A DNA stretch of 24,112 nt from a virus: positions 1 through 24,112 of the IMG/VR virus record IMGVR_UViG_3300021962_000640; one strand, given 5' to 3'. A model generated the notes under the pieces. The model did no database searches. It was given only the letters and a program-made list of their open reading frames with translations, and had not been told where the DNA came from. The position numbers and the translations under genes were made by a program. This document shows, piece after piece, positions 3,487 through 24,098 of this stretch (positions are counted from its first letter, which is position 1; the number at the start of each line of letters is the position of its first letter).

Positions 3487-4122
3487 ATGGACGAATTTAG
3501 CACCCTTTGTTTGGGTATCCCAACAATAAACCAAGCGGAACTTTTAAATAAAGCCCTTGAGACCTACAAAGACACTTTTTACGGTAGGCACATTTTTATC
3601 GTGGATAATGGAAATCAAAAAATCAATAGGGTTTCTCAGGGAATGAAAATTATGGTTCAAAAGCAAAATTTAGGAGTTGCTGCATCTTGGAACCTAATTT
3701 GTAAAATGGCGTTTTCTCAGGGATACACTCACGTAGCAATAATGAACGATGATATCGTTTGTGAAAAATATGCTGACGACCTTGAAGACTTCATTGATAT
3801 TACAGGAGCGGGAATATACACAGGATATAAAAACTTCTCAGTGTTTATCATTTCTTATGAAACATACAAATACATAGGACCATTTGATGAAGATTTTGTA
3901 GGAGCCTATTTTGAAGATAGTGATTACTTGTACCGATGCAAACTCAAAGGCGTATTTATCGAGCAAACAGAGTTGCTAAACCCTGAAGTGTACAACCAAT
4001 CATTGAGTATTCGTAAAGACCCACAACTCAATAAAAATTTTGAACAAAACAAAACCCGTTATTTACAGAAATGGGGTGGAGTTCCAACTGAAGAGAAATA
4101 TTTAACCCCCTATAACCAATAA
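3487..4122 (+). CDS. GT2-like glycosyltransferase
   Basis: This 211-residue protein has a GT-A fold pattern. The N-terminal CLGIPTINQAELLNKALETY strand-helix is followed by FIVDNGNQ, a second nucleotide-binding segment NLGVAASWNLICKMA, and NDD at residues 87-89, the position of the metal-binding DxD motif. GPFDEDFVGAYFEDSDYLYRCKLKG is the typical acceptor-side block of family 2 enzymes (FDE...YFEDxD). It probably transfers a sugar from a nucleotide-sugar donor. The acceptor is unknown: modified DNA bases or a host surface glycan are both plausible, given the methyltransferase and second glycosyltransferase downstream. It starts 1 bp after the previous stop. Confidence 0.8.
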   Translation: MDEFSTLCLGIPTINQAELLNKALETYKDTFYGRHIFIVDNGNQKINRVSQGMKIMVQKQNLGVAASWNLICKMAFSQGYTHVAIMNDDIVCEKYADDLEDFIDITGAGIYTGYKNFSVFIISYETYKYIGPFDEDFVGAYFEDSDYLYRCKLKGVFIEQTELLNPEVYNQSLSIRKDPQLNKNFEQNKTRYLQKWGGVPTEEKYLTPYNQ

Positions 4123-5086: not shown

Positions 5087-6094
5087 ATGCAAATATTACA
5101 AGGTAACAATCTTGACTTGTTAAAAACGCTACCCAAGAATAGCGTAGACAGTATTGTAACAGACCCTCCGTATGGTTTGTCTTTTATGAATAAGAAATGG
5201 GATTATGATGTTCCTACAGTTGAGTTATGGCGAGAAGTGTATCGAGTATTAAAGCACGGAGGTTACTTGTTGTCATTTGGCGGTACTCGAACTTATCATA
5301 GGATGGTTGTAAATATAGAGGATGCAGGTTTTGAAATACGCGACCAAATTATGTGGCTATATGGAAGTGGATTTCCAAAATCTCATAATATTGGAAAGGC
5401 TGTGGATGCTTTAACGCTCACAGGTAAATCAAATCCTAAAGCATTAAGAGAGGTTCGTATGGGCGAAAACTACAAACCAACAGGTCAAGTAGATTATCAT
5501 AAAGGCAGGATGTTTTCTTCCGAAATACCTAATGATAATACAGAGCAAAATATCAATAATAAATGGGAAGGTTGGGGGACTGCATTAAAACCCGCCAACG
5601 AACCTATATGTCTTGCTCGTAAACCCTTGTCTGAAAAATCCGTTGCTGAAAATGTCCTTAAATACGGGACGGGTGCAATAAATATTGATGGATGTAGAGT
5701 AGCACAATCATCAAGTTTAGGGCGTTTCCCTGCCAATTTAATTCACGATGGAAGTTATGAGGTAGTTACAAAATTCCCAAACGAAAACGGTAGCACGTCC
5801 CGTTTCTTTTATTGTGCCAAAACGAGTCAAAGTGATAGGAACGATGGCAATAATCACCCAACCGTAAAGCCAACTGAACTTATGAGTTACCTCTGTCGTT
5901 TAATAACGCCACCAAACGGAATAGTATTGGACCCTTTTATGGGAAGTGGTTCGACAGGCAAAGGTGCAATACTTGAGGGTTTTGATTTTATCGGAATGGA
6001 ACTTGACCCCGAATATGTAGAAATAGCCAAATCAAGAATTACGCGGGCTCAAGCAGAATATCAAGAAATTAAAGCACAATTAAAATTATTTTAA
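5087..6094 (+). CDS. Beta-class DNA methyltransferase (N6-adenine or N4-cytosine)
   Basis: This 335-residue enzyme has the catalytic motif IV TDPPYG (DPPY at 26-29) near the N-terminus and the AdoMet-binding motif I DPFMGSGS at 282-289 near the C-terminus, the order of beta-class amino-methyltransferases. NHPTVKPTELMSYLCRL is the usual motif X block, and the end carries GMELDPEYVEIAKSRI (motif II/III). The middle (about 100-240) is the target-recognition region, beginning with SGFPKSHNIGKAVD. No restriction gene is adjacent, so it is an orphan enzyme, probably protecting the element's DNA from host restriction or marking its own genome. Its recognition sequence cannot be deduced here. Confidence 0.9.
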   Translation: MQILQGNNLDLLKTLPKNSVDSIVTDPPYGLSFMNKKWDYDVPTVELWREVYRVLKHGGYLLSFGGTRTYHRMVVNIEDAGFEIRDQIMWLYGSGFPKSHNIGKAVDALTLTGKSNPKALREVRMGENYKPTGQVDYHKGRMFSSEIPNDNTEQNINNKWEGWGTALKPANEPICLARKPLSEKSVAENVLKYGTGAINIDGCRVAQSSSLGRFPANLIHDGSYEVVTKFPNENGSTSRFFYCAKTSQSDRNDGNNHPTVKPTELMSYLCRLITPPNGIVLDPFMGSGSTGKGAILEGFDFIGMELDPEYVEIAKSRITRAQAEYQEIKAQLKLF

Positions 6095-6096
6095 AT

Positions 6097-7320
6097 ATGA
6101 AAAGACTATTAGCATATATGGATTTTGACTGTCCTACAGGGTTCGGAAATGTGTCGAAAAACCTTTTTGAGAGACTCACCCCATTCTTCGAAAAGAATGA
6201 TATTCAGGTGGATGTGTGCGCCACGAACTATGGTAATAAGGAAACTCTACACTACCACAAAAATGTCACTGTGTATAATGCGAAATCATTTGCCAAAAAT
6301 ATGAGTGATAAGTGGTATAGAGATGGGTTTTTGAAATTACTACAGAGCAAACCTTATGACCTTGTATGGATGATGAATGATTTGCCCGTTATCGATGCAT
6401 TTATGTCATTGATGCCCGTGATTAGGGAAAGCAAGGTCAAGTTGATGCATCCTCAGTTTAAATTATTGTTGTACACACCCATCGATAGCAATCCCGACCC
6501 ATCTTGGTTTAAACACGCAAAGGATTTTGACCAAATAATCACTTATACGAAATATGGTTTTGATGAAATACAAAAAATCAAACGGTTAAAAAACCTTGAG
6601 ATTATCCCTCACGGATTTGACACCAAGAATTTTTTTGAACAATCAGGTCAGAAAGAAGAGTGCAGGAAACGCGTAGGGATACCTCAGGGTAAGTTCGTCA
6701 TCGGGACGGTGAACAAGAATCAGCCACGAAAAGATATGGCTAATGCTTTAATTGCGTTTGCTGAATTTAAAGACACTTTACCCAAGGGACATAATGTGTG
6801 TTTATATCTGCACACATATTATGATGACCCAACAGGGGTGAATTTACGCACAGTAGGAGATAAATTAGGGCTTGTTTGGGAAAAGGATTATACAATGCCG
6901 ATGCACAAAAAATACACTGATGGAGCCTACACGCTTTCCGATATGAATGATGTTTACAATTCTTTCGATGTGTTTTTGACTACGTCTACGGCAGAAGGGT
7001 GGGGATTAACTTTAACTGAAGCCATTTGCTGTAAACTTCCAATCATATTTGGATATCACACGTCTCAAAAGGAAATAGCGGCACCTTTGAAGTCGGGAAA
7101 GTGTATTGAATTGACGAAGAGCGTTCAAATTCACGATGGTAACGCTATTCGTTACAAATTGAATCCTACCGAGATTGCTAAATGGATGAATTTTTTCTAC
7201 AAGCAATATCAATCAGGGGAGAAGGAGAATTTTGATAAGTATGACGAAGTGATAAAAAAGTACGATTGGGATTTAATAGCAATTGAATGGTCAGTGATTA
7301 TTGCTAAATTGCTTAAATGA
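6097..7320 (+). CDS. GT-B (GT4-like) glycosyltransferase
   Basis: This is a 407-residue, two-lobed glycosyltransferase. The N-terminal lobe starts MKRLLAYMDFDCPTGFGNVSKNL, with the Gly-rich acceptor-side turn. The C-terminal lobe starts at about 197 with VIGTVNKNQPRKDMANALIAF, the donor-binding strand with conserved Asn/Arg-Lys. FLTTSTAEGWGLTLTEA carries the EX7E motif of retaining GT4 enzymes (E300 and E308). It uses an NDP-sugar; the acceptor is unknown. It starts 3 nt after the methyltransferase stop, so the two are surely co-expressed. DNA-base glycosylation or host glycan alteration are the main hypotheses. Confidence 0.85.
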   Translation: MKRLLAYMDFDCPTGFGNVSKNLFERLTPFFEKNDIQVDVCATNYGNKETLHYHKNVTVYNAKSFAKNMSDKWYRDGFLKLLQSKPYDLVWMMNDLPVIDAFMSLMPVIRESKVKLMHPQFKLLLYTPIDSNPDPSWFKHAKDFDQIITYTKYGFDEIQKIKRLKNLEIIPHGFDTKNFFEQSGQKEECRKRVGIPQGKFVIGTVNKNQPRKDMANALIAFAEFKDTLPKGHNVCLYLHTYYDDPTGVNLRTVGDKLGLVWEKDYTMPMHKKYTDGAYTLSDMNDVYNSFDVFLTTSTAEGWGLTLTEAICCKLPIIFGYHTSQKEIAAPLKSGKCIELTKSVQIHDGNAIRYKLNPTEIAKWMNFFYKQYQSGEKENFDKYDEVIKKYDWDLIAIEWSVIIAKLLK

Positions 7321-8267: not shown

Positions 8268-10796
8268 ATGTCATTTAAAGACCTTTTAAATAAACATTAC
8301 ACCCACACTCAAAATTCGGTGAAAAAATACGAAGTGGGTGGTAAGGTAGTTACCAAAAAAGGGGCTACCAATGATGCGAAGAAAGGAGGTTATTTCGATG
8401 GTAGGCCGCACTCAGAGGGTGGTATTAAAGCCATTAACATCGATAATAATCAACCTATAGAAGTTGAAGGTGGAGAAGTCGTTATTACAAAACGCGCAGT
8501 AGCCGACAACACTAAAAAAGAATTCCAAGGCAAAATGATGACTAACAAAGAAATTTTGTCAAAAATAAATGAATCAGGTGGAGGAGTCTCTTTCGCAAAA
8601 GGAGGCGAAGTCAAATTGGAGGAAGATGACTATTATATTTCTGATGATGATTTGAATTTTCCAATTGATGAAAAGGAATTTGCCGACGGTGGAACTATTC
8701 CTCTTCCTGAAATCCAACAGCGTATTTTAGAGATAATCGTCAATTCGCCAAAACCACAAATTACCTACAATCAAATTCAAGACCGATATAGTGAAAAATT
8801 TCCTACGGAATTTGGTATTTATAAAGAGCGTGATGAAGTCTTGGATGCCGTACTTGAAATGCTTGATTCAAAGGTGATTATAAGTGGTCCTAAAGGTTAC
8901 GAACTTACACCTGACGGGTATGATAAAATTGAAGAAATCAGGCGAGAGAACTTAAATACAAAAACTACATTAACAAATGAAACTAAGGTCATTATACCTG
9001 AAAATCAACAGCGTATTTTAGAAATAATTATAAATTATGGAAAGCCAAAAGTTACGTATGATGAAATTCGAGACAAGTATGAGGAAAAATTTCCAACAAA
9101 CAAATTAATTACTGAAGTAGTGGATGCTTTGCGTGAAGCATTAGAGTCTAATTTGATTGTACAGGTCTCAGAAGGAATGTACAAGGCTTACAAAATTTCT
9201 CCTTTGGGTTTTGATAAAATTGAAGAAATACGCCAATCAAATCGAGAAGCAAATAATCAAAAATCAAACGAAAACAGTGGGCCTTTAGAAATTGAATCAA
9301 TTCGAGTTTTAATTAGCAATATTAAAGACCCTGAAGGTTCTAAATACGGTATCACAAATAAATATAGAGGCCAATATCAAAAAGTCTTTCAAAACATTGC
9401 AACATTTGATAATGTAGAAGAAGATATTGTATATTATGGGAAAGATGGTGGTAATGTTAATGATTTTTACGTAAAAATTATAAATCCAAAATTCAAAATT
9501 GACTCTGAGTCAGCAATCAAAGAAATAAATAAATTAAATCGTGTATCGGTTACAGATATTATTTACAAAAATTCACCGAGCACTGAAGGAGTTCAAACGA
9601 ATCCTTTGTTCGAAGAATTTCCCTATTTTGCTCCTGATGCTGTCCAAGAATACAATCCTCAGGTTCTTACGGTGCAACCAAGGTCTCTTATCCTTGATGC
9701 TTCATTGACAGAACTGAAAAACAAAATATCTGAAAAGCAAAAAATCATACGAATCACTTCGCAATTATTACAAGATGTACCTGTTGAAAATGTCTTGGAA
9801 AGAGTTGAAATGTCTTTACTATTGAACGCGGAGCAAAAAGAGTTGGATTTATTAGCAAACCCAACATTAAACAAACTTCCATTTTTGAAACGCACCAATA
9901 ATAAAAATGCTTTAGACCAATTGATAGATAATGCTCGTGTAGAACAAAAGAATCTTCAACTACCAAGAACTTTAGCGACTGAAACAAATATGTTAGGCGA
10001 GTTCGATACTTTCATTGAATATTGCGCAGCAAATACAGATTCTTACATTGCTAATTGGTTGGTTAATTTTTTTGGAAATTGGGTTTTTTATTCTGATTTA
10101 TACAATTTTGATTACTCACTGTTGAATGATAAAAATAACCTACCCGATGCAATGAGTAGAGTAGGGAGAGTTCAACAGATTCAAATCGGTAATACCTATC
10201 AATATATGTATGTTCCTCAAATTGTATTTCAAGGATTGTCTAAGGTTTATGACAGAGTGGGATTTGATGTTTTTCCGATTTCCTATTATGCAGTAAATTA
10301 TAGTTATGCGAATTGGTTTGCAACTACTAAAGGACAAAATTTGGGAACAGAAGGGGTTATACTTCCGTGTATTTTGAATATACGTAGACCATTAGATTTG
10401 AGTTTTTTTGGAATCGAAAAAGTAAGCCCTACAAAATTCTTTGATGCGATTTATCTTCAAACAGGCTTGTCTCCTCAAGAGTTGAAGGTAAGTCCCGCAT
10501 TTTTATCCGACAGCACGCCTGATTTAGAGGTGTGGGTTTATATTAGAAATAATGTTGAAATGTTAAAAATCCTTAAGGAAACAAAAATCTGTGATGGTAT
10601 TCATATGTATGAAAATAATCCCGCAGTTGATATGACGAATATCGCTTATCAGACCGAAGTTTGGATTACTTTTTATCCTGAGCAGACCAAAGTTGTTCCA
10701 TTATATCAATTTAGAGATTTCAAGCAAGATGGGTTCGAAATGGAAAGAGGATGGTTTAGTAAATCGCAATTTTTAAAAAGTGGAGGTACAATATGA
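8268..10796 (+). CDS. Polyvalent-type protein: duplicated winged helix + ART-like C-terminus
   Basis: This is an 842-residue multi-domain protein. Residues 1-115 form a common phage/polyvalent N-terminal module (PHSEGGIKAINIDNNQPIEV, EGGEVVITKRAVAD, EILSKINESGGGVSFAKGG). Residues about 143-229 and 244-325 are two related winged helices (both with QQRILEII and a terminal DKIEEIR). About 330-640 is unassigned. About 640-825 resembles the ADP-ribosyltransferase domain of polyvalent proteins (ART-PolyVal): VFQGLS, YYAVNYSYANWFA, VILPCILNIRRPLDL, DGIHMYENN and a terminal TEVWITFYPEQTKVV in the place of the usual E/D-x-QIK block. Transfer of ADP-ribose to a host protein or DNA is possible; the ART call is inference. 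GG linkers occur at about 21, 109, 138 and the C-terminus. Confidence 0.8.
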   Translation: MSFKDLLNKHYTHTQNSVKKYEVGGKVVTKKGATNDAKKGGYFDGRPHSEGGIKAINIDNNQPIEVEGGEVVITKRAVADNTKKEFQGKMMTNKEILSKINESGGGVSFAKGGEVKLEEDDYYISDDDLNFPIDEKEFADGGTIPLPEIQQRILEIIVNSPKPQITYNQIQDRYSEKFPTEFGIYKERDEVLDAVLEMLDSKVIISGPKGYELTPDGYDKIEEIRRENLNTKTTLTNETKVIIPENQQRILEIIINYGKPKVTYDEIRDKYEEKFPTNKLITEVVDALREALESNLIVQVSEGMYKAYKISPLGFDKIEEIRQSNREANNQKSNENSGPLEIESIRVLISNIKDPEGSKYGITNKYRGQYQKVFQNIATFDNVEEDIVYYGKDGGNVNDFYVKIINPKFKIDSESAIKEINKLNRVSVTDIIYKNSPSTEGVQTNPLFEEFPYFAPDAVQEYNPQVLTVQPRSLILDASLTELKNKISEKQKIIRITSQLLQDVPVENVLERVEMSLLLNAEQKELDLLANPTLNKLPFLKRTNNKNALDQLIDNARVEQKNLQLPRTLATETNMLGEFDTFIEYCAANTDSYIANWLVNFFGNWVFYSDLYNFDYSLLNDKNNLPDAMSRVGRVQQIQIGNTYQYMYVPQIVFQGLSKVYDRVGFDVFPISYYAVNYSYANWFATTKGQNLGTEGVILPCILNIRRPLDLSFFGIEKVSPTKFFDAIYLQTGLSPQELKVSPAFLSDSTPDLEVWVYIRNNVEMLKILKETKICDGIHMYENNPAVDMTNIAYQTEVWITFYPEQTKVVPLYQFRDFKQDGFEMERGWFSKSQFLKSGGTI
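8715..9022 (+). repeat. Direct repeat from winged-helix duplication
   Basis: The 17-bp string CAACAGCGTATTTTAGA occurs at 8715-8731 and again at 9006-9022, exactly 291 bp (97 codons) apart. The ends of the repeated segment (GATAAAATTGAAGAAAT, near 8922 and 9213) also match. Nucleotide identity in these blocks suggests a fairly recent tandem duplication of one winged-helix module. Confidence 0.75.
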
Positions 10797-12256
10797 ATAT
10801 TGGTCAAGTAATAAAAATTGGAGGGATTGATTTAAAATATAAAACTGCGGCTCAACTTTTGGGTAAAACGCTGAATAATGTCCAAATAGATGGTAAGTGG
10901 AATGCAGCGCAGTATTATGCTTTAGAGGATTTTTATGCACTGCCACCCGAAAAAAAAATACCTGTGCTCATACAGTTATCAAGAGAGGATAATAGTAAGA
11001 TGTTTTTAGTTGGATTTTTTCAACACGAATTTCTTACAGCAATAAATTTTTCGAGTGACATAAATGTAAATTTTGAAATGATTATGAATCCTGTTGTCAT
11101 TCCAAATTCATATGGCTTTTACTACGAAGAAGAGGCTTATGATTTCTTTATGGATTTAAATGAGCGTTTTAATCAACAGCAAAAAGGCAATCCACCACCA
11201 CAACCACCTGAAGAACAACAAATTTTATTAGGCAGGTTTGATATAAATTCTGATAATATATTATACGTGTTTCAGTCATCCATTAAACCCGATGCGAGCG
11301 GTAACTATATAGGAGAATATGTCACAACATTAACGGATACAAACACGGCTTCGACAAGTCCAAAATCTAAAGAGATAACTACGACTATTAATGGGGAAGA
11401 ATATGATTTGTTATTATTGTTTGACCAAGATTTTTCTGATAAAACATCGTTGCCAATTCCTTCTACCTTTCCACAAGGAGGTGGTGGTCCTAAATCGCAA
11501 ACTTGGTTTATTATTCCTATGAAAAACGATGGTACAGGACACGGTGAGCCTCCACCAATGCCTTCGCAAGGGTCACAGGGCTCAAACGGCTCACAAGGTT
11601 CTCAAGGTTCTCAAGGCTCGCAAGGGTCACAAGGTTCTCAAGGCTCTCAAGGGTCACAAGGTTCTCAAGGCTCGCAAGGGTCACAGGGTTCTCAAGGCTC
11701 GCAAGGGTCACAGGGTTCAAAGGGCTCACAGGGTTCTCAAGGCTCACAAGGTTCTCAAGGCTCGCAAGGGTCACAGGGTTCTCAAGGTTCTCAAGGTTCT
11801 CAAGGTTCTCAGGGCTCGCAAGGGTCACAGGGTTCTCAAGGTTCTCAAGGTTCTCAAGGTTCTCAGGGCTCTCAAGGGTCAAATGGTTCTCAGGGTTCTC
11901 AGGGCTCTGAAGGCTCTCAAGGGTCAAATGGTTCACGCGGTAAACGCGGGGCAAGCACAAGTGGTTCAAGTGGAAGAAAAGGACAAATTCAAGGGGGTGA
12001 TGATGAAAGTGCATCGCCTGTATATGGTAGTACTCAAACCAAAGATATACCGTTAATTGAAATCATTTCTCAGGCAACAAATAAAACATCAAACCAAGTT
12101 CGAGGTCAAGTAAGAACTACAGGTTCCGCAATGATGTTCCTTTCTTCAAACCCATCATCTATAAACCCAATTAAAAGAAGTTTAGGATATTCTGAAAGCG
12201 ATAATATATCAATAAATCAATTGGCACAACAAATAGTTCAAAAAATAAGAGAATAA
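10793..12256 (+). CDS. Protein with long (Gly-Ser-Gln)n collagen-like tract
   Basis: This 487-residue protein overlaps the previous gene by ATGA. Residues 1-140 are a folded alpha/beta domain of unknown type (IGQVIKIGGIDLKYKTAAQL, DFYALPPEKKIPVLIQL). A Pro/Gln-rich linker (PPPQPPEEQQ, about 140-150) leads to a second domain at 150-255. Residues about 258-388 are some 42 consecutive Gly-x-y triplets, mostly GSQ with rare GSN, GSK, GSE and GSR, closing in GKRGASTSGSSGRKG. A helical C-terminal domain of about 85 residues follows. The tract has Gly at every third position but almost no Pro, so a collagen triple helix is uncertain; a flexible or fibre-like spacer is equally likely. Confidence 0.8.
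   Translation: MNIGQVIKIGGIDLKYKTAAQLLGKTLNNVQIDGKWNAAQYYALEDFYALPPEKKIPVLIQLSREDNSKMFLVGFFQHEFLTAINFSSDINVNFEMIMNPVVIPNSYGFYYEEEAYDFFMDLNERFNQQQKGNPPPQPPEEQQILLGRFDINSDNILYVFQSSIKPDASGNYIGEYVTTLTDTNTASTSPKSKEITTTINGEEYDLLLLFDQDFSDKTSLPIPSTFPQGGGGPKSQTWFIIPMKNDGTGHGEPPPMPSQGSQGSNGSQGSQGSQGSQGSQGSQGSQGSQGSQGSQGSQGSQGSQGSQGSKGSQGSQGSQGSQGSQGSQGSQGSQGSQGSQGSQGSQGSQGSQGSQGSQGSQGSNGSQGSQGSEGSQGSNGSRGKRGASTSGSSGRKGQIQGGDDESASPVYGSTQTKDIPLIEIISQATNKTSNQVRGQVRTTGSAMMFLSSNPSSINPIKRSLGYSESDNISINQLAQQIVQKIRE
11565..11955 (+). repeat. Gly-Ser-Gln coding microsatellite-like repeat (9/27-bp period)
   Basis: The tract is built from 9-bp units GG(T/C/G)TC(T/A/G)CA(A/G), organised into longer blocks of about 27 bp (for example GGCTCGCAAGGGTCACAGGG followed by TTCTCAA). 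Because the period is a multiple of three, other frames on both strands also stay open through it. Expect copy-number variation. Confidence 0.85.
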
Positions 12257-12261
12257 ACAAT

Positions 12262-13665
12262 ATGGCACAAAGAGGCACATTAGAATACTATCAGGAAATT
12301 GTGAATGACACAACCACTCCTGAATTACTTAGAAATCAAGCACAGAAGCAAATTGACCGTTTGGCTTCAATTGGCTCTGCGCAAATACAAACATCGGCAT
12401 CAACAGGAGTTGGAGACCCGCAAATTCAAGCGGTAATTGATGCAATGCAAGCCGCAGTAAATGCTTACGCAGGTAAATCAGGAAATCCTGAGCAAATCAA
12501 AAGAATTGTCGACGAAGAAATTTCAAAATCAAAAATTGATTTTTCTCAACTAAGTGACGGCCTGAAGGCAATGTTACAATCGTCTCAAAAAGTAGAGTTG
12601 ACAATACGTCAAATGGCTGCCGTATCTACAAAAGTGGTTAGTAATGCCTTTATTACAAGACCTATTGTTCAAGACCTTTTATCTGATGTTCAAGCGCGAA
12701 ACAATGCATATTTGTACGGAGGAGCGGGAACGGGTAAAACGTTTACAGCAGGTGAAATCGCAGACTTATTGGATTGGGAACTTATTACTTTGAACTGTAA
12801 CCAATTTACATCTCCAATCGATATTATTGGAGGTCAAACTATTGATGGTTATCAGGAAGGAAAAGTTTCAATGGCTTGGGCCAACGAAATTATTTCTCCT
12901 AATGGTGATAAGCGTAAAGTTTCGGGCGTAGTTCTTCTTTTGGATGAGTTACCTAAACTTGACCCCAATACAGCAGGTTTGCTGAACGAAGCCTTGGCTA
13001 AAGTAAAAGATTTTAAACTTGACAAAGTAACGGGTGCAATAAAACCACCGACAATTTTGAATGGAAGAAATGAAAAATTGGTTTTAGGCAATTTGATGGT
13101 TATTGCCACGGGTAACGTGCCATTAAATACCGTTGACCCCGATTATGAGGCTAATTTTAAGCAGGATTTATCTTTGCAAGACCGTTTTGTAGGTAGCACC
13201 TACAAGGTTTTCGTTGATTATGAATACGAATTCAACTCTATTATGGAAGGATTTGCATTCATTTGGATTTATGGAACCAAACTGCGTGAAAAGATTATTT
13301 CTTTGAATGCAACGGGTCAAGCGTTTGTTTCAATTCGTCTTATGATGAATTTGAAAGAAACTTACAAAGTGTATCGTGAGGTAATAGACAAAAAGAAATT
13401 CAATCAGGGTAATCAAGCCTTTGATTTAATTTCTGAGCCCAAAACTATCATTGAATCTTTGGAAACTTTCTTGACTCTTTTCAAACCTGCAATTAAACAA
13501 GCCATTCAAGACGACCCTGAAACCAACTTGAAAAACTTTGAAAAAATTGTTAAGGAAAAAAATAAAATGCCATACAATGAAAAGGCTCCTAATTTCAACA
13601 CTCAAGATGAAATTAATGAAGCGCAAAGAATGATTAAAGCATACGAGGATAGTAAAAACTCTTAA
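12262..13665 (+). CDS. MoxR/CobS-like AAA+ ATPase
   Basis: This is a 467-residue protein. The N-terminal ~120 residues are helical and Gln-rich. The AAA+ core has Walker A GGAGTGKT at 153-160, Walker B VVLLLDE with D228-E229, sensor-1 N285 in ATGNVPLN, and an arginine-finger candidate R308 in LQDRF. The insert TIDGYQEGKVSMAWANEII before Walker B and the IRLMMNLKET helix afterwards resemble MoxR/CobS/dynein-related ATPases. These form hexamers that act with VWA-domain partners to remodel protein or metal complexes. The next gene, 3 bp downstream, encodes a probable VWA-like partner, which strengthens the call. Substrate unknown. Confidence 0.85.
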   Translation: MAQRGTLEYYQEIVNDTTTPELLRNQAQKQIDRLASIGSAQIQTSASTGVGDPQIQAVIDAMQAAVNAYAGKSGNPEQIKRIVDEEISKSKIDFSQLSDGLKAMLQSSQKVELTIRQMAAVSTKVVSNAFITRPIVQDLLSDVQARNNAYLYGGAGTGKTFTAGEIADLLDWELITLNCNQFTSPIDIIGGQTIDGYQEGKVSMAWANEIISPNGDKRKVSGVVLLLDELPKLDPNTAGLLNEALAKVKDFKLDKVTGAIKPPTILNGRNEKLVLGNLMVIATGNVPLNTVDPDYEANFKQDLSLQDRFVGSTYKVFVDYEYEFNSIMEGFAFIWIYGTKLREKIISLNATGQAFVSIRLMMNLKETYKVYREVIDKKKFNQGNQAFDLISEPKTIIESLETFLTLFKPAIKQAIQDDPETNLKNFEKIVKEKNKMPYNEKAPNFNTQDEINEAQRMIKAYEDSKNS

Positions 13666-18758: not shown

Positions 18759-21700
18759 ATGAATAATCAAGCAAAAATCAAACTTGAGAAAATAAAGAAA
18801 CTGAAACTCCCTGAAAAAGTTAGGGCTACAGCGGACAAAATTGAAAAAGGTTTGTCGAGTGCAGACGCGGCTACCCAAAAGAAGGCTGAAGATGCATTGA
18901 ATAAACTTTATGACCAAATCAAAGCAGTTGCGGCTAAACAGCGTGAAGAAAAAACGGAAAAGAAAGTCAATGAAAATACTATTGTTCCTCAGAATGCTGA
19001 TATCGCGGCCCCTGAAGCAAAAAAACAGTTGGCAAAAAAAACCACTGTTGCAGATGACGTGATTGACAAGGCATTAAAGGAGGACCCTGAACTTGCAGGA
19101 TTTGGGAAATCGGATAAACGCAGAGACGCAGGGCGCAAAGCGCAACCTGCAGGTCGACGAGTGGCTCGCAAGGGATGGAAAAATCAATACGGTAAATCAG
19201 ATGGCGGCAGAGTATATTTTGAAAATCGTGAAAACCGTACAGACCGTAAAAGTCCCTCTTTCAAATCAGGATACCCATATTTAGCAAAAGGTGGTAAAAT
19301 ACACCCTATGGATGAGGAAGATGGAACTTTTTATGTCAACCTTTACAAGACCAAAGGAGACCAAATGATGTCAGTGGATGAGCGCGAATACAAATCTAAA
19401 GCGTCCGCTATGACCTATGCGATGATGAAGCGCGATTTTATGAAAGAAGGTGAAAGCATATTCGTGATGAATGATGACGGTGATGTGCTTTACACTTCTA
19501 TTGGCACCAAAAAAATGGCTATGGGTGGTAAATTCCCTTATCAAAATGCTCAAGTTGGTGACAGTGCTCGTGTTATTCTTGAAAACAAAATGGGAACCAT
19601 TATGGTCGCATATGGTCGTCGTTTCCATTTGAAGTTTCCCGATGGTACGGAAAAGACATATTCGGCTGAAGAATTAGAATTTTATCCTGAAGACGAAATG
19701 ATGGCTAAAGGTGGTGACATTCAAAACACAACTTTTGTCGTTAAAAACTTGGACGGTAAAATCGTTTTAAAAACTAAAAGTCTAAATAAAGCATCAGACT
19801 ATCAAGGTTTAGTCGGAAGGGATACTCACACGGTTGAAACTCTTGACGGCAGAATTTTGAGTGCGTCAGGTGGTTATATGGAACATCGTGGTACAATTAC
19901 GGATGATTCATTGGAAAGTATTTTGAAAAGTGATTTCCCTAAATCCAATTATCAGTTAGATTATAATGAAATTAATGGGCATAGTATTTACGGGCAAAAA
20001 GAGGTGATTCAGACTATTCAAAAACATTTGTTGAATGAATATGGTATAACTTCTGAATATGTTAAAGAGGGATTTGGATTGCCATTTTTGAGGGTAAATA
20101 GTCAATTCGTAGACAAATACGCTCAAGGTGGATATATTGCTGAGGGAGAAAATTATGAGTATGTAAATACTTTCAAGCGTTTTGACAGCAATGTTCCTGT
20201 TCCTCAGGAGGACTTTGAAAAATTGGTGGATGCGTATCACAAACAACTTTCAGGTGATAAACTTGCCGTTTCCAAATACAAGGTTTTGAAACTTCAAATG
20301 GGCAACTATTTAGGTCATAAAACAGTTGAAGAAATGGAAGAGTACATCGAGAAAACTCACAACGCTCACAAAATGGCCGATGGTGGTGAATTGAAAAAAG
20401 GCGATAAAATTATAATACTTGGAAAAGAGTTTGAATTTGTACGAAATGAAATGGATTCAAGCCAAGGATATGACGAAGAGCGTGTAATTTTGAAAAATGA
20501 AGATGGAATTCGCTCGTATCCAAAAGATATGGTTGAAGCATATTCCAAATACAAAATGGCCGATGGTGGAGTAGTTAGCAATTTAGAATTACTCAAGACA
20601 AAGATTAGAGATGAAAGCAAAAAAATGAAAGTTTATGGCGAGGATGGATTTGGTGGATATGTAGTTAATATGAGTGATGATAAAATTTCACTTTCAGACT
20701 ACACAGATTTAAAACCGTATTCAGCACAAGCAAGTGATAACGAAACAAAGGTTTCCTTTTCTGACACGAATCGTCAAATGGTTATATTTTCAACAGATGT
20801 TAAAGAGCGTTTTGAAGATGACAATAGTTTCAAAAAATATGGGGGGATTAAATACATTTATGAGCCACTCACTGACGAAATTGCGGAGGAAATATTAAGC
20901 AAAGTAGATACCTTTAAACAAAGCACTGCATTTGCAACAGGTGGTTATGTGTCTAAAAGGGATATTGAAGCGATAACAATTGTGAACCCAAATAAGAGTA
21001 ATCCGAAAAACCCATACTTGACTTTCCGAAGTGGAGAATTCTTAAACGGTTTGAATCAATTCGCGAAAGGTGGAAAACTGACTGATAATTATACCTACAT
21101 TAAACGGAGTGATGTTTTTGCGGTGTACTACAAAGACAAATCCAAAAAATATTTTTCGGTTATGGAAAATAAACCGAAAAATGGTTTTTGGGTCAGCAAG
21201 AAAGCATTAATCAGGGAAGGTGGAAAAACACCAAGTGCAGCAAATGCACCTTTTGACGCATACGAGTCATACAATGAACTTTCTGAGATGAATAGCAAAG
21301 TATGGGACAAGTTGAAAATTCAAAGTGGTAGCGAAATTTATGCTTCAGATTCTTTACAAAAGAAATTGGCCGTCGAGTATCCCAATTCGGGAATTGATGC
21401 AAAATTCAAAAGTTTGAAAGCCATTCAAAGAAAAAAGGTTGCGGAAATAATGACGGACGAAAACGAGCATAGTTTGCGTAATTATTTGACACTGAGAGGA
21501 TATCTTGGACAAAAAGAATATGACAGAAAGGTAAGTATATTCGACCCTAAAAGACCTTATAACTTAAACCCTGCAAATTTTAAAAATACTCTGAAAAAAA
21601 TGGCTGAGGGTGGTAAAATTGGATTTGAAGCCCTTTCCAAAAAAGTAGCGTCAAGGTATGCGGGTAAAAATGTTAAGCCTAAATACCAAGGCGAATATGG

Positions 21701-22331
21701 AAAGACTTACGATAAGGCTGAAGCAAAGGAAGTTGGCGACAAAGTAGCGGCAAAAGTTTATCGTATGCAGCAAGGTAAAATGGCTATGGGTGGTGAACTT
21801 GAAAAGGGTATTCGAACCGAAATGAAAGAACACGGAATGAGCCGTGAAGAAGCAACAAAAACTGCGAATGACCATTTAAAAGAAGATGCAAAATACTACA
21901 CCAAAATGGCTAAAATTGGTCTAAAAGATGGTGGTAAAATCGAATTGCCTCACGAATTGGATAGATATTTTACTAAGCCTGCAGGAACGATTGAAGTGGA
22001 AATGAACAAGTTGATTCCTATTCGTGCACGGAAGAGTGGTATTGAAAATGCAGAAGTGTATATGAAGAAGGCTTACGATGGAAAAATGTCGAAGCGTAAA
22101 CCTATTGAAATTTACAAAACTCGTAATAAAAAATATCGTGTAAACGATGGTAACAGTACCTATGCAGTTGCTAAAAAGAATGGTTGGGAAACTATTTATG
22201 CAACTGTAGTTTCCAATCCAAATATCAAAAATCGTGTTGAAAAAAGTACATTTGCAATAGCAAAAGAAATTAGAAAAGAAGGTGAAAAATGGAGTGATGC
22301 TGTTAAAAGAGTAAAGGAAAACAGGAAATGA
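18759..22331 (+). CDS. 1190-aa polyvalent-type protein with DUF5661-like and ParB-like modules
   Basis: The N-terminus (1-110) is lysine-rich coiled coil. Residues 117-170 hold a basic block (KRRDAGRKAQPAGRRVARKG, then YFENRENRTD). A chain of small domains follows, separated by GG motifs at about 175, 253, 315, 454, 539, 600, 725, 768, 948, 1008 and 1055 (for example MADGGELKKGD). Residues 1010-1050 resemble DUF5661 (EHGMSREEATKTANDHLKED, then YYTKM). Residues 1056-1140 resemble a ParB/sulfiredoxin-like domain (MNKLIPIRARKSGIENAEVY, then YRVNDGNSTYAVAKKNGWE), but the usual G-x-R-R catalytic/CTP motif is DGNST. No TM segment. The architecture matches phage and conjugative-element polyvalent proteins delivered with DNA; the function of most domains is unknown. 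Overlaps the next gene by ATGA. Confidence 0.75.
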   Translation: MNNQAKIKLEKIKKLKLPEKVRATADKIEKGLSSADAATQKKAEDALNKLYDQIKAVAAKQREEKTEKKVNENTIVPQNADIAAPEAKKQLAKKTTVADDVIDKALKEDPELAGFGKSDKRRDAGRKAQPAGRRVARKGWKNQYGKSDGGRVYFENRENRTDRKSPSFKSGYPYLAKGGKIHPMDEEDGTFYVNLYKTKGDQMMSVDEREYKSKASAMTYAMMKRDFMKEGESIFVMNDDGDVLYTSIGTKKMAMGGKFPYQNAQVGDSARVILENKMGTIMVAYGRRFHLKFPDGTEKTYSAEELEFYPEDEMMAKGGDIQNTTFVVKNLDGKIVLKTKSLNKASDYQGLVGRDTHTVETLDGRILSASGGYMEHRGTITDDSLESILKSDFPKSNYQLDYNEINGHSIYGQKEVIQTIQKHLLNEYGITSEYVKEGFGLPFLRVNSQFVDKYAQGGYIAEGENYEYVNTFKRFDSNVPVPQEDFEKLVDAYHKQLSGDKLAVSKYKVLKLQMGNYLGHKTVEEMEEYIEKTHNAHKMADGGELKKGDKIIILGKEFEFVRNEMDSSQGYDEERVILKNEDGIRSYPKDMVEAYSKYKMADGGVVSNLELLKTKIRDESKKMKVYGEDGFGGYVVNMSDDKISLSDYTDLKPYSAQASDNETKVSFSDTNRQMVIFSTDVKERFEDDNSFKKYGGIKYIYEPLTDEIAEEILSKVDTFKQSTAFATGGYVSKRDIEAITIVNPNKSNPKNPYLTFRSGEFLNGLNQFAKGGKLTDNYTYIKRSDVFAVYYKDKSKKYFSVMENKPKNGFWVSKKALIREGGKTPSAANAPFDAYESYNELSEMNSKVWDKLKIQSGSEIYASDSLQKKLAVEYPNSGIDAKFKSLKAIQRKKVAEIMTDENEHSLRNYLTLRGYLGQKEYDRKVSIFDPKRPYNLNPANFKNTLKKMAEGGKIGFEALSKKVASRYAGKNVKPKYQGEYGKTYDKAEAKEVGDKVAAKVYRMQQGKMAMGGELEKGIRTEMKEHGMSREEATKTANDHLKEDAKYYTKMAKIGLKDGGKIELPHELDRYFTKPAGTIEVEMNKLIPIRARKSGIENAEVYMKKAYDGKMSKRKPIEIYKTRNKKYRVNDGNSTYAVAKKNGWETIYATVVSNPNIKNRVEKSTFAIAKEIRKEGEKWSDAVKRVKENRK

Positions 22332-23443
22332 AATTATTAAAATTAACCAAACAGGAAGTTGCAAAACTTCAAAAGCAATATAAATTTGGGTCTGATTTAT
22401 CCAAGCAAGATGTAGTGGTGAAAATATTCAACCCTTATGGTAGAGGGAGATGGTATTTGGTAAATCAAGACCCTGATGACCCTGATTACATTTGGGCGAT
22501 TGTAGATTTGGGTATGGGTCCTGAGGTTGGCTCAGTGAGTTTTAGCGAATTGCAAAACTTTCGAATGCCTGTATATGGATATAAATTCCCGTTGGAAAAG
22601 GACAGATTTACACAGCGAAATGCTGTCGAAGTTTTTGAAGGATTACAGCGCGGGAATTATTTTGCAGATGGTGGAGAAATCAAAGTGAAAGTTGCCGAAA
22701 AAGACATTTACAACAAAAATCATTACAAAGGTATCTTTCAAGATTCGGACAAAGATGGTGTTCCTGACATTGATGATGCGCAACCTAAAAATGCGAAATT
22801 ACAGGGAGAGGTTGAAGAGTTGAAGTTCTCTCAAGTTTTTGATAGGCTTATCAAAACCAAAAAGTCTTTGGACAAAATTATGAGGGCGGCTATTTCAAAA
22901 CTTAAGGTTATTTCCCCTGTAGGAAGTACTATTTATGCGCGAACCAAAACGCCTTATTCCATAATTAACAAATTGATTAACAAGAAATCTACGAGCCTTG
23001 AAAGAAGCAAATTGGGAGATGTAGAAGGTTTGACAGACTTAATTGGAACCACCGTGGTTGTGAAAAATTTGGATGATATTAATATGGTTTCTAAGAAGTT
23101 GGATGATGGAGCATTAGGCGAAATTTTGGAGAAAAAAGATTATTATAAAAATCCAAAAGCGGGTTATCGTGCAATTCATTACATCACTATTTTTGAGGGC
23201 GTTGCTATTGAAGTTCAATTAAAAACTTACCGTCAAAAAGAAATAAATGAGGCTTCGCACGAACCTTACAAGTATGAAAATCTTGAAGCGGAGCGTTTAT
23301 TGTATTTGACTAATTTGGCAAATGAAGCGGATATGGGAAATCTAAAAGCCCAAATAGAAATTGACAAAATTTTCCTTGATAAAAAAGCCTTAAAGCAATC
23401 TTTATACAAAGACAAAGTCAGAGGAAATAAATTACCTTCGTAA
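22328..23443 (+). CDS. DUF2958 - RelA/SpoT-type nucleotide synthetase fusion
   Basis: This is a 371-residue protein. Residues 1-105 match DUF2958 (VVVKIFNPYGRGRWYLV, VGSVSFSELQNFR, PLEKDRF), common on plasmids and conjugative elements. A FADGGEI linker (about 112) and a DSDKDGVPDIDDAQP calcium-loop-like segment (about 139-153) follow. Residues about 175-315 are a RelA/SpoT synthetase domain: R205-x-K207-x-x-Y210-S211-x-x-x-K215, D237-L-I-G, K-D271-Y...P-K-x-G-Y280-R-x-I-H284, and E295-V-Q-L-K-T. These align with the RelSeq residues R241, K243, K251, D264, Y308 and E323, so the site looks competent. No HD hydrolase domain is present. Expected reaction: pyrophosphate transfer from ATP to GDP/GTP, or toxic variants (adenosine nucleotides, tRNA). 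Starts within the preceding stop. Confidence 0.8.
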   Translation: MKLLKLTKQEVAKLQKQYKFGSDLSKQDVVVKIFNPYGRGRWYLVNQDPDDPDYIWAIVDLGMGPEVGSVSFSELQNFRMPVYGYKFPLEKDRFTQRNAVEVFEGLQRGNYFADGGEIKVKVAEKDIYNKNHYKGIFQDSDKDGVPDIDDAQPKNAKLQGEVEELKFSQVFDRLIKTKKSLDKIMRAAISKLKVISPVGSTIYARTKTPYSIINKLINKKSTSLERSKLGDVEGLTDLIGTTVVVKNLDDINMVSKKLDDGALGEILEKKDYYKNPKAGYRAIHYITIFEGVAIEVQLKTYRQKEINEASHEPYKYENLEAERLLYLTNLANEADMGNLKAQIEIDKIFLDKKALKQSLYKDKVRGNKLPS

Positions 23444-23457
23444 TAAAATTTACACAT

Positions 23458-23889
23458 ATGAAAAATATAACCACTATCCTAAAGGAGAAAAATGTGAAAG
23501 TCGACACTTTGCCCGACAACATTCAAAGTGCAATTGAAAATTCAATGAACCTTTTCGAGGACATTCAAACTTTAGAAGACACGTTGACTGAAGAGTCTAC
23601 AGATGAAGAAAAAGCAGAATTCACCGAATTGAAGCAAACCCACGAAGATTTTAACGAACAGATTCTTGGGGCAATTGACAATTTTCAAGAAGAACTTGAA
23701 GCAAAGAAAAAAGCACAAAATAATGTAAGTCCTGCGCCATCGCCTGCGCCTGAACCAAAACCTGCAACGCCTCCACCATCAAATCCTGAACCGAAAAAAA
23801 AAGGAATTGGATTTGGTACTTTTATTATCGGAGCAGCAGTTTTGATTGTAACCGCAGGTGCTGTTAATATGATGAGAAATAAGAACTAA
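23458..23889 (+). CDS. Acidic coiled-coil protein with C-terminal membrane anchor
   Basis: This is a 143-residue protein. Residues 1-90 are acidic and helical (LFEDIQTLEDTLTEESTDEE, AIDNFQEELEAKKKAQN), a likely coiled coil. Residues 93-113 are a Pro/Ala/Glu linker (SPAPSPAPEPKPATPPPSNP), and 119-138 are one hydrophobic segment (FGTFIIGAAVLIVTAGAVNM) followed by RNKN. The layout is a tail-anchored protein with a large cytoplasmic coil. No family is recognised. It lies 14 bp after the synthetase fusion, and its stop overlaps the next ATG. Confidence 0.75.
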   Translation: MKNITTILKEKNVKVDTLPDNIQSAIENSMNLFEDIQTLEDTLTEESTDEEKAEFTELKQTHEDFNEQILGAIDNFQEELEAKKKAQNNVSPAPSPAPEPKPATPPPSNPEPKKKGIGFGTFIIGAAVLIVTAGAVNMMRNKN

Positions 23890-24098
23890 TGGAAAAAATA
23901 CCCCAACACTACTTTGCATTTAATCCACAGTCTGTCCGTTGGATGGATATGGTGTTTGTTGCACCTATTATGATTTATGCAGGTGTGAAGGGAGATTTTA
24001 AACCGTATGTTAAATTTTCACTCATCGCGATTGGCTCTTTGACTTTTCTTTACAACGGCATTAATTATGTAACCAATTTGCAAAACGAAGAAAAATGA
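23889..24098 (+). CDS. Small two-TM membrane protein (69 aa)
   Basis: This is a 69-residue protein with two hydrophobic segments, about 19-33 (MDMVFVAPIMIYAGV) and 42-60 (VKFSLIAIGSLTFLYNGINYV), joined by a KGDFKPY turn and ending in a short charged tail. It overlaps the preceding gene by one base and the following gene by ATGA. It is probably a membrane partner of its neighbour; a holin-like function cannot be excluded. No family recognised. Confidence 0.7.
   Translation: MEKIPQHYFAFNPQSVRWMDMVFVAPIMIYAGVKGDFKPYVKFSLIAIGSLTFLYNGINYVTNLQNEEK

Follow-up and report, generated by a model that had tools for sequence, protein, structure and literature searches.

The gene and its two domains

The window, the whole 24.1-kb virus record analysed here (24,112 nucleotides), derives from an uncultured virus, probably a bacteriophage. 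An earlier note on this DNA had read a fusion of DUF2958 with a RelA/SpoT (RSH) synthetase in the ORF at 22328-23443 (Table 1), and this was borne out: the ORF is real and both domains lie above their Pfam cut-offs, with 58.9 bits against 27 for RelA_SpoT (PF04607) and 47.9 against 21 for DUF2958. The ORF shares its first 4 bp with the end of the upstream ORF, stop codon included, and 14 bp separate it from the next one. Its dN/dS of 0.045-0.058, low in both domains, shows that it is under strong purifying selection. Three relatives on viral contigs of 75-85 kb are 91-95% identical to the 371-aa protein over its full length, and they were the only ones returned by a scan of viral contigs with a narrow alignment (A2), while a scan of genome contigs gave only two distant long RSH loci. 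A further alignment, A4, offered no stretch of sufficient conservation for such a scan. Remoter fusions of DUF2958 with the RSH domain occur in G004 and G026 (46-47% identity to the window protein); their DUF2958 part falls under the Pfam cut-off, and that of G004 clusters with other DUF2958 segments. The annotated phage and plasmid collections contained no record covering 80% of the 371-aa protein.

Table 1. Coordinates of the features discussed (positions of the window unless another locus is named)
Feature	Position	Strand	Evidence
Whole ORF, DUF2958 cassette + RSH cassette, 371 aa	22328..23443	+	ATG start
DUF2958 domain, residues 6-93	22343..22606	+	Pfam PF11171, E 2e-12
Cassette joint FADGGEI, residues 112-118, a copy of [YFM]A[KD]GG	22661..22681	+	Motif count, alignment
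DSDKDGVPDIDD, residues 139-150, EF-hand / thrombospondin-3-like loop	22742..22777	+	Conserved aspartates and glycine, 11 cassettes
Long helix, residues 167-195, ahead of the synthetase core	22826..22912	+	Predicted structure
RelA_SpoT synthetase domain, residues 205-317, full catalytic residue set	22940..23278	+	Pfam, E 7.1e-16
AAA/MoxR-like ATPase, marker gene	12262..13665	+	Pfam; found 24 related viral loci
Overlapping upstream 1190-aa multi-cassette protein, 11 GG joints	18759..22331	+	0.66 joints expected by shuffling
Another GG-jointed polyvalent-type protein	8268..10796	+	Motif count; alignment with G011 homologue
Stand-alone HD_4 alarmone hydrolase gene	L083 1300-1872	-	HD_4 match
Stand-alone HD_4 alarmone hydrolase gene	L084 1300-1920	-	HD_4 match

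Elsewhere in the window we observed an ORF that contains a long collagen-like repeat of the GSQ type (10793-12256), and a gene for a CcrM-like adenine methyltransferase lying between two glycosyltransferase-like genes (3487-4122, 5087-6094, 6097-7320). The C-terminal cassette of the 1190-aa ORF (21936-22328) looks ParB-like by eye (PIEIY...YRVNDGNSTYAVAKKNGWETI), with no Pfam support.

A mix-and-match system of GG-jointed cassettes

Through the AAA ATPase gene, for which 50,697 phage records contained no match, we gathered the related viral loci. A short motif recurs in the genes neighbouring 22328-23443 and in 12 related viral contigs: [YFM]A[KD]GG, with one free position and then a hydrophobic residue behind it. 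There are 336 copies of [YFM]A[KD]GG in 25 proteins, 3-31 in each, where shuffling yields means of about 0.1-1.7 for a protein; 143 other proteins, with 40,596 residues, contain 22 copies. The two glycines (G115-G116) are the sole invariant columns in a 10-row alignment. Segments cut at the motif have a median length of 88 aa, and their clustering revealed the same segments in different orders across the viruses, in multi-cassette proteins whose length reaches 2836 aa (L060, L061, L062, L063, L064, L066-L069 and the window protein at 18759-22331).

How do the two parts of the 371-aa protein fit into this layout? DUF2958 is present in 10 of the 24 marker-bearing records and RelA_SpoT in seven. 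The former is the lead cassette in nine clustered proteins of the window and related contigs; it is the first segment in every protein that carries it, and the cassette which follows varies, being RSH or another. Many DUF2958 carriers, 1,200-1,700 aa long, are without RSH, and several RSH carriers of 1,200-1,600 aa are without DUF2958. The RSH cassette itself may be second, in the middle or last, and the gene in which it resides differs between viruses. In G011 it has been added to a gene containing an ADP-ribosyltransferase (ART) domain, directly behind an EKGG sequence; this GG joint is where the orthologues of that gene from the window, G009 and G023 come to an end. The C-terminal part of the window protein at 8268-10796 aligns weakly with the ART-PolyVal region of the G011 homologue; PF18760 matches above its cut-off in the homologue L068 (E 3e-10) and not in the window protein.

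By these comparisons DUF2958 and the synthetase are interchangeable cassettes of a mix-and-match system and not a special one-off fusion. Nothing supports a special function of this combination, both parts being shuffled cassettes; the earlier note was right about the two domains and overlooked the GG joint, the DxDxDG loop described below, the modular setting and the HD_4 genes that stand apart in G011 and G023. Since the architecture is explicit and the borders of the cassettes are clear, single effectors lend themselves to separate expression and assay.

Could the joints be processing sites? In that case viral polyproteins would be cut at double glycines into dozens of small effectors, among them a calcium-controlled alarmone synthetase that would be kept in one state inside the virion and switched once in the cytoplasm. 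We consider this quite improbable, and a limited literature search on the GG motif and phage double-glycine polyproteins found nothing relevant. The motif might also be a pure DNA recombination site: codon bias is seen at it in places (GCT, and GGC for the first glycine, above background), but with a pattern that differs between groups. The repeated joint offers a direct handle on the question whether such viral multi-domain proteins undergo processing.

Among the related viruses, that of G003 (L014-L018; 84.7 kb) has many small ORFs which look membrane-anchored and one ORF of 5338 aa, and it is possibly a tailless membrane virus. In the same virus (L085 2001-2699) a conserved protein of 233 aa, a tentative candidate for a jelly-roll capsid protein, adjoins a HerA/terminase-like ATPase. 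Its predicted structure (mean pLDDT 54.5) gave a best Z of 7.0, to an unrelated protein, and 5.8 to PRD1 P3.

The DxDxDG loop

After a short lead-in at the start of the RSH cassette comes a DxDxDGxxxxDD loop, in which D139, D141, D143, G144, D149 and D150 are shared without exception by the 11 cassettes, among them that of an archaeal plasmid protein (BDI55125.1) that is about 30% identical (35% in another alignment). The pattern is that of the calcium loops of EF-hand, dockerin and thrombospondin-3 proteins, and from it we infer that the loop may bind calcium and perhaps control the activity of the cassette. Synthetases with dockerin or thrombospondin-3 loops were sought in a limited literature search, with nothing relevant found. 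The same module of loop plus RSH lies in the 1003-aa protein encoded on an archaeal plasmid at L005 5743-8754 (LC711081.1), which PF04607 misses at E 0.05. After that module lies a JAB/MPN-like stretch, FGHTHP...S..D, which recurs in the next gene.

An apparently intact synthetase, nearer to the housekeeping kind

All the RelSeq-type active-site residues that the earlier note had named were recovered. In a profile alignment to 1VJ7, R205, K207, S211, K215, D237, Y280, H284, E295 and Q297 pair with RelSeq R241, K243, S247, K251, D264, Y308, H312, E323 and Q325 (RelSeq numbers counted by hand from the alignment), with an interval between K215 and D237 that is nine residues longer than in RelSeq. 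The whole set is identical in 11 of 11 cassettes at identities down to about 30%, and further K and T positions are also invariant in them. The syn3 site reads GYRAIH, with AIH at 282-284 (thus AxH), and the syn2 region reads IGTT where RelSeq has IAIR. The equivalent of RelSeq K304 is K277 here and is N or Q in four of the 11 cassettes. This variation, together with that at syn2, might suggest a catalytically dead cassette serving as a nucleotide-binding or structural module. Against such a role stand the invariance of the R, K, S, K, D, Y, H, E, Q, K and T positions and the strong purifying selection, and we regard it as highly improbable.

The earlier note had proposed structure prediction and superposition as a check, and these returned a synthetase fold. 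The AlphaFold model is confident for the synthetase part only, best at residues of about 240-350, and the first ~165 residues, loop included, are mostly below a pLDDT of 50. The top Foldseek matches were RelP and RelQ (E 1e-8), and all the top fold matches were alarmone synthetases. With VIA-align the matches to small synthetases began at residues 165-175 of the model, and the closest were of the RelP/RelQ type, S. aureus SAS2 giving a Z of 15.7 (2.4 A over 166 residues). An intact synthetase is therefore supported by the profile, the conserved active site, the predicted fold and purifying selection.

Could the cassette be a toxSAS-like enzyme, which pyrophosphorylates the CCA ends of tRNA or makes (p)ppApp and, as an effector in the infection, kills the host or blocks translation? 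ToxSAS enzymes belong to the same domain superfamily and are common in phage-host conflict (PMC11559606; PMC12226406), and CapRel and FaRel2 superimpose on the model with Z of 13.3 and 7.7. However, the housekeeping synthetases score better in sequence as well as in fold: the profile search placed RelSeq at E 7e-12 and FaRel2 at 0.004, and the single-sequence search found RelP at E 6e-6 and no toxSAS at E<=1. The histidine of syn3 is likewise unlike the GxN of Apk2. These arguments and those from the neighbouring genes (below) make a toxSAS-like role rather unlikely. The domain is, from sequence and predicted fold, closer to the housekeeping (p)ppGpp synthetases than to the tRNA-modifying or (p)ppApp enzymes. 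Its score with the NCBIfam RelQ/YjbM equivalog NF053588 (29.3 bits) is far from the cut-off of 320.

Guanosine synthetases carry SxH at syn3, a histidine which the cassette shares with them, and (p)ppApp synthetases GxN. The acceptor is uncertain because syn2 differs from that of RelSeq, being unlike both guanosine and (p)ppApp enzymes, and because swaps of the syn motifs in Apk2 left its specificity unswitched, which shows that more than these motifs determines it. From residues and model we lean, without certainty, towards (p)ppGpp as the predicted product.

Hydrolase and immunity genes

The earlier note had recognised neither a hydrolase nor an antidote gene. For the hydrolase this was true of the window and its nearest relatives and failed for the group at large. 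HD_4 was not found in the window, G001-G004 and G009, nor in the other 20 records searched, among contigs that are possibly incomplete; distant RSH-bearing relatives, G011 and G023, have separate Mesh1-like HD_4 genes with the HD motif. The lack of a hydrolase is for this reason, and because contigs may be incomplete, a local statement. HD_4 occurs in two of the seven marker-bearing contigs with RSH and in none of the 17 without it (p about 0.08 by hand count), too few to claim an association. The two Mesh1-like genes might speak for a toxSAS-like activity, given that PaSpo, a hydrolase from a phage, is able to undo the product of a toxSAS (PMC11559606). On the other hand, no antitoxin was recognised in the window or the nearest relatives, and the two downstream ORFs (23458-23889 and 23889-24098) gave no Pfam antitoxin match. 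Near both HD_4 genes we noticed by eye an ADP-ribosyltransferase-like ORF; Pfam lent no support to the one that was scanned.

An action against competitors was also suggested by the earlier note. The alarmone, made late or in a carrier state, might bar rival phages or poison neighbouring bacteria; Iyer 2017 allows anti-rival action for nucleotide-signal (GGDEF) domains (PMC5512222), and among the candidate-defence profiles of PADLOC one, PDC-S33, matches the RSH part at E 2.4e-12. This match may, however, reflect the shared domain only, and the setting among cassettes is suggestive of viral multi-domain effectors. Because no immunity gene was recognised beside the ORF and no carrier domain of the MuF, PAAR or LXG type was found, we find the anti-competitor toxin unsupported and superinfection exclusion very improbable.

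Proposed role

We think it fairly probable, with some reserve, that the 371-aa product is a small two-cassette polyvalent protein, the second cassette of which is a competent RelA/SpoT-type pyrophosphokinase with a putative calcium loop that acts in the infected cell to damp the host for the virus. Whenever and by whatever route it is delivered (no delivery signal was identified), the RSH cassette would most likely act inside the infected cell, moving pyrophosphate from ATP to a 3'-hydroxyl acceptor. With GDP or GTP as the most likely acceptor, the (p)ppGpp formed would damp host transcription, translation and replication to the benefit of the virus. DUF2958 would be an independent lead cassette, perhaps serving packaging or delivery, or else an effector in its own right. 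A stringent-like shutdown of the host, as the earlier note had suggested, is plausible, and it was proposed earlier for the RelA/SpoT domains of polyvalent proteins (PMC5512222). If active, the synthetase would test this proposal of Iyer et al. The gene also connects an alarmone synthetase of viral origin with a protein layout that is explicitly mix-and-match.

Comparison with known systems

The polyvalent proteins of phages and conjugative elements are likewise element-encoded and multi-domain, with mixed effectors that include RelA/SpoT and ART domains, and a host-shutdown role for the former has already been proposed (Iyer 2017, PMC5512222). The 371-aa protein has at least two distinct domains in one virus polypeptide, as that class is defined. 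Its RelA/SpoT domain is among the catalogued polyvalent domains, and ART-PolyVal was above the cut-off only in the relative L068. The group of the window differs in its [YFM]A[KD]GG joints, its DUF2958 lead and its calcium-type loop, and perhaps also in the lack of a zincin: the large proteins scanned gave no Pfam match to a peptidase, with many segments unassigned. The zincin-like peptidase is the commonest polyvalent domain, in about 36% of the published set, and is not obligatory (PMC5512222). The term DUF2958 is missing from the main text of Iyer 2017, and the GG-jointed layout, the DUF2958 lead cassette and the loop are new as far as we checked that paper; the viral group itself, whose AAA marker matched nothing among isolated phages, is also new, as far as the sources compared show. 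BFVD contains RelA/SpoT-like proteins from uncultured phages that exceed 1,000 aa in length.

MuF-Apk2 and the toxSAS enzymes FaRel2 and CapRel similarly place RSH-superfamily domains in phage-associated or anti-phage proteins. In contrast to MuF-Apk2, the window protein begins with DUF2958 and not MuF and has AxH instead of GxN at syn3, and it differs from the toxSAS enzymes in having no recognised immunity partner. RelP (SAS2) and RelQ (SAS1), the best fold and single-sequence matches, share the catalytic residues, whereas here the synthetase is a polyvalent cassette behind a DxDxDG loop, about 20% identical to them and with no evidence of the tetramer or the allosteric site. Plant CRSH, a calcium-activated RSH, combines a synthetase and an EF-hand-type motif in one polypeptide. 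The viral cassette differs in having a single loop, N-terminal of the synthetase, and a calcium control that is putative. If this loop is functional, its likeness to CRSH is likely to be convergent.
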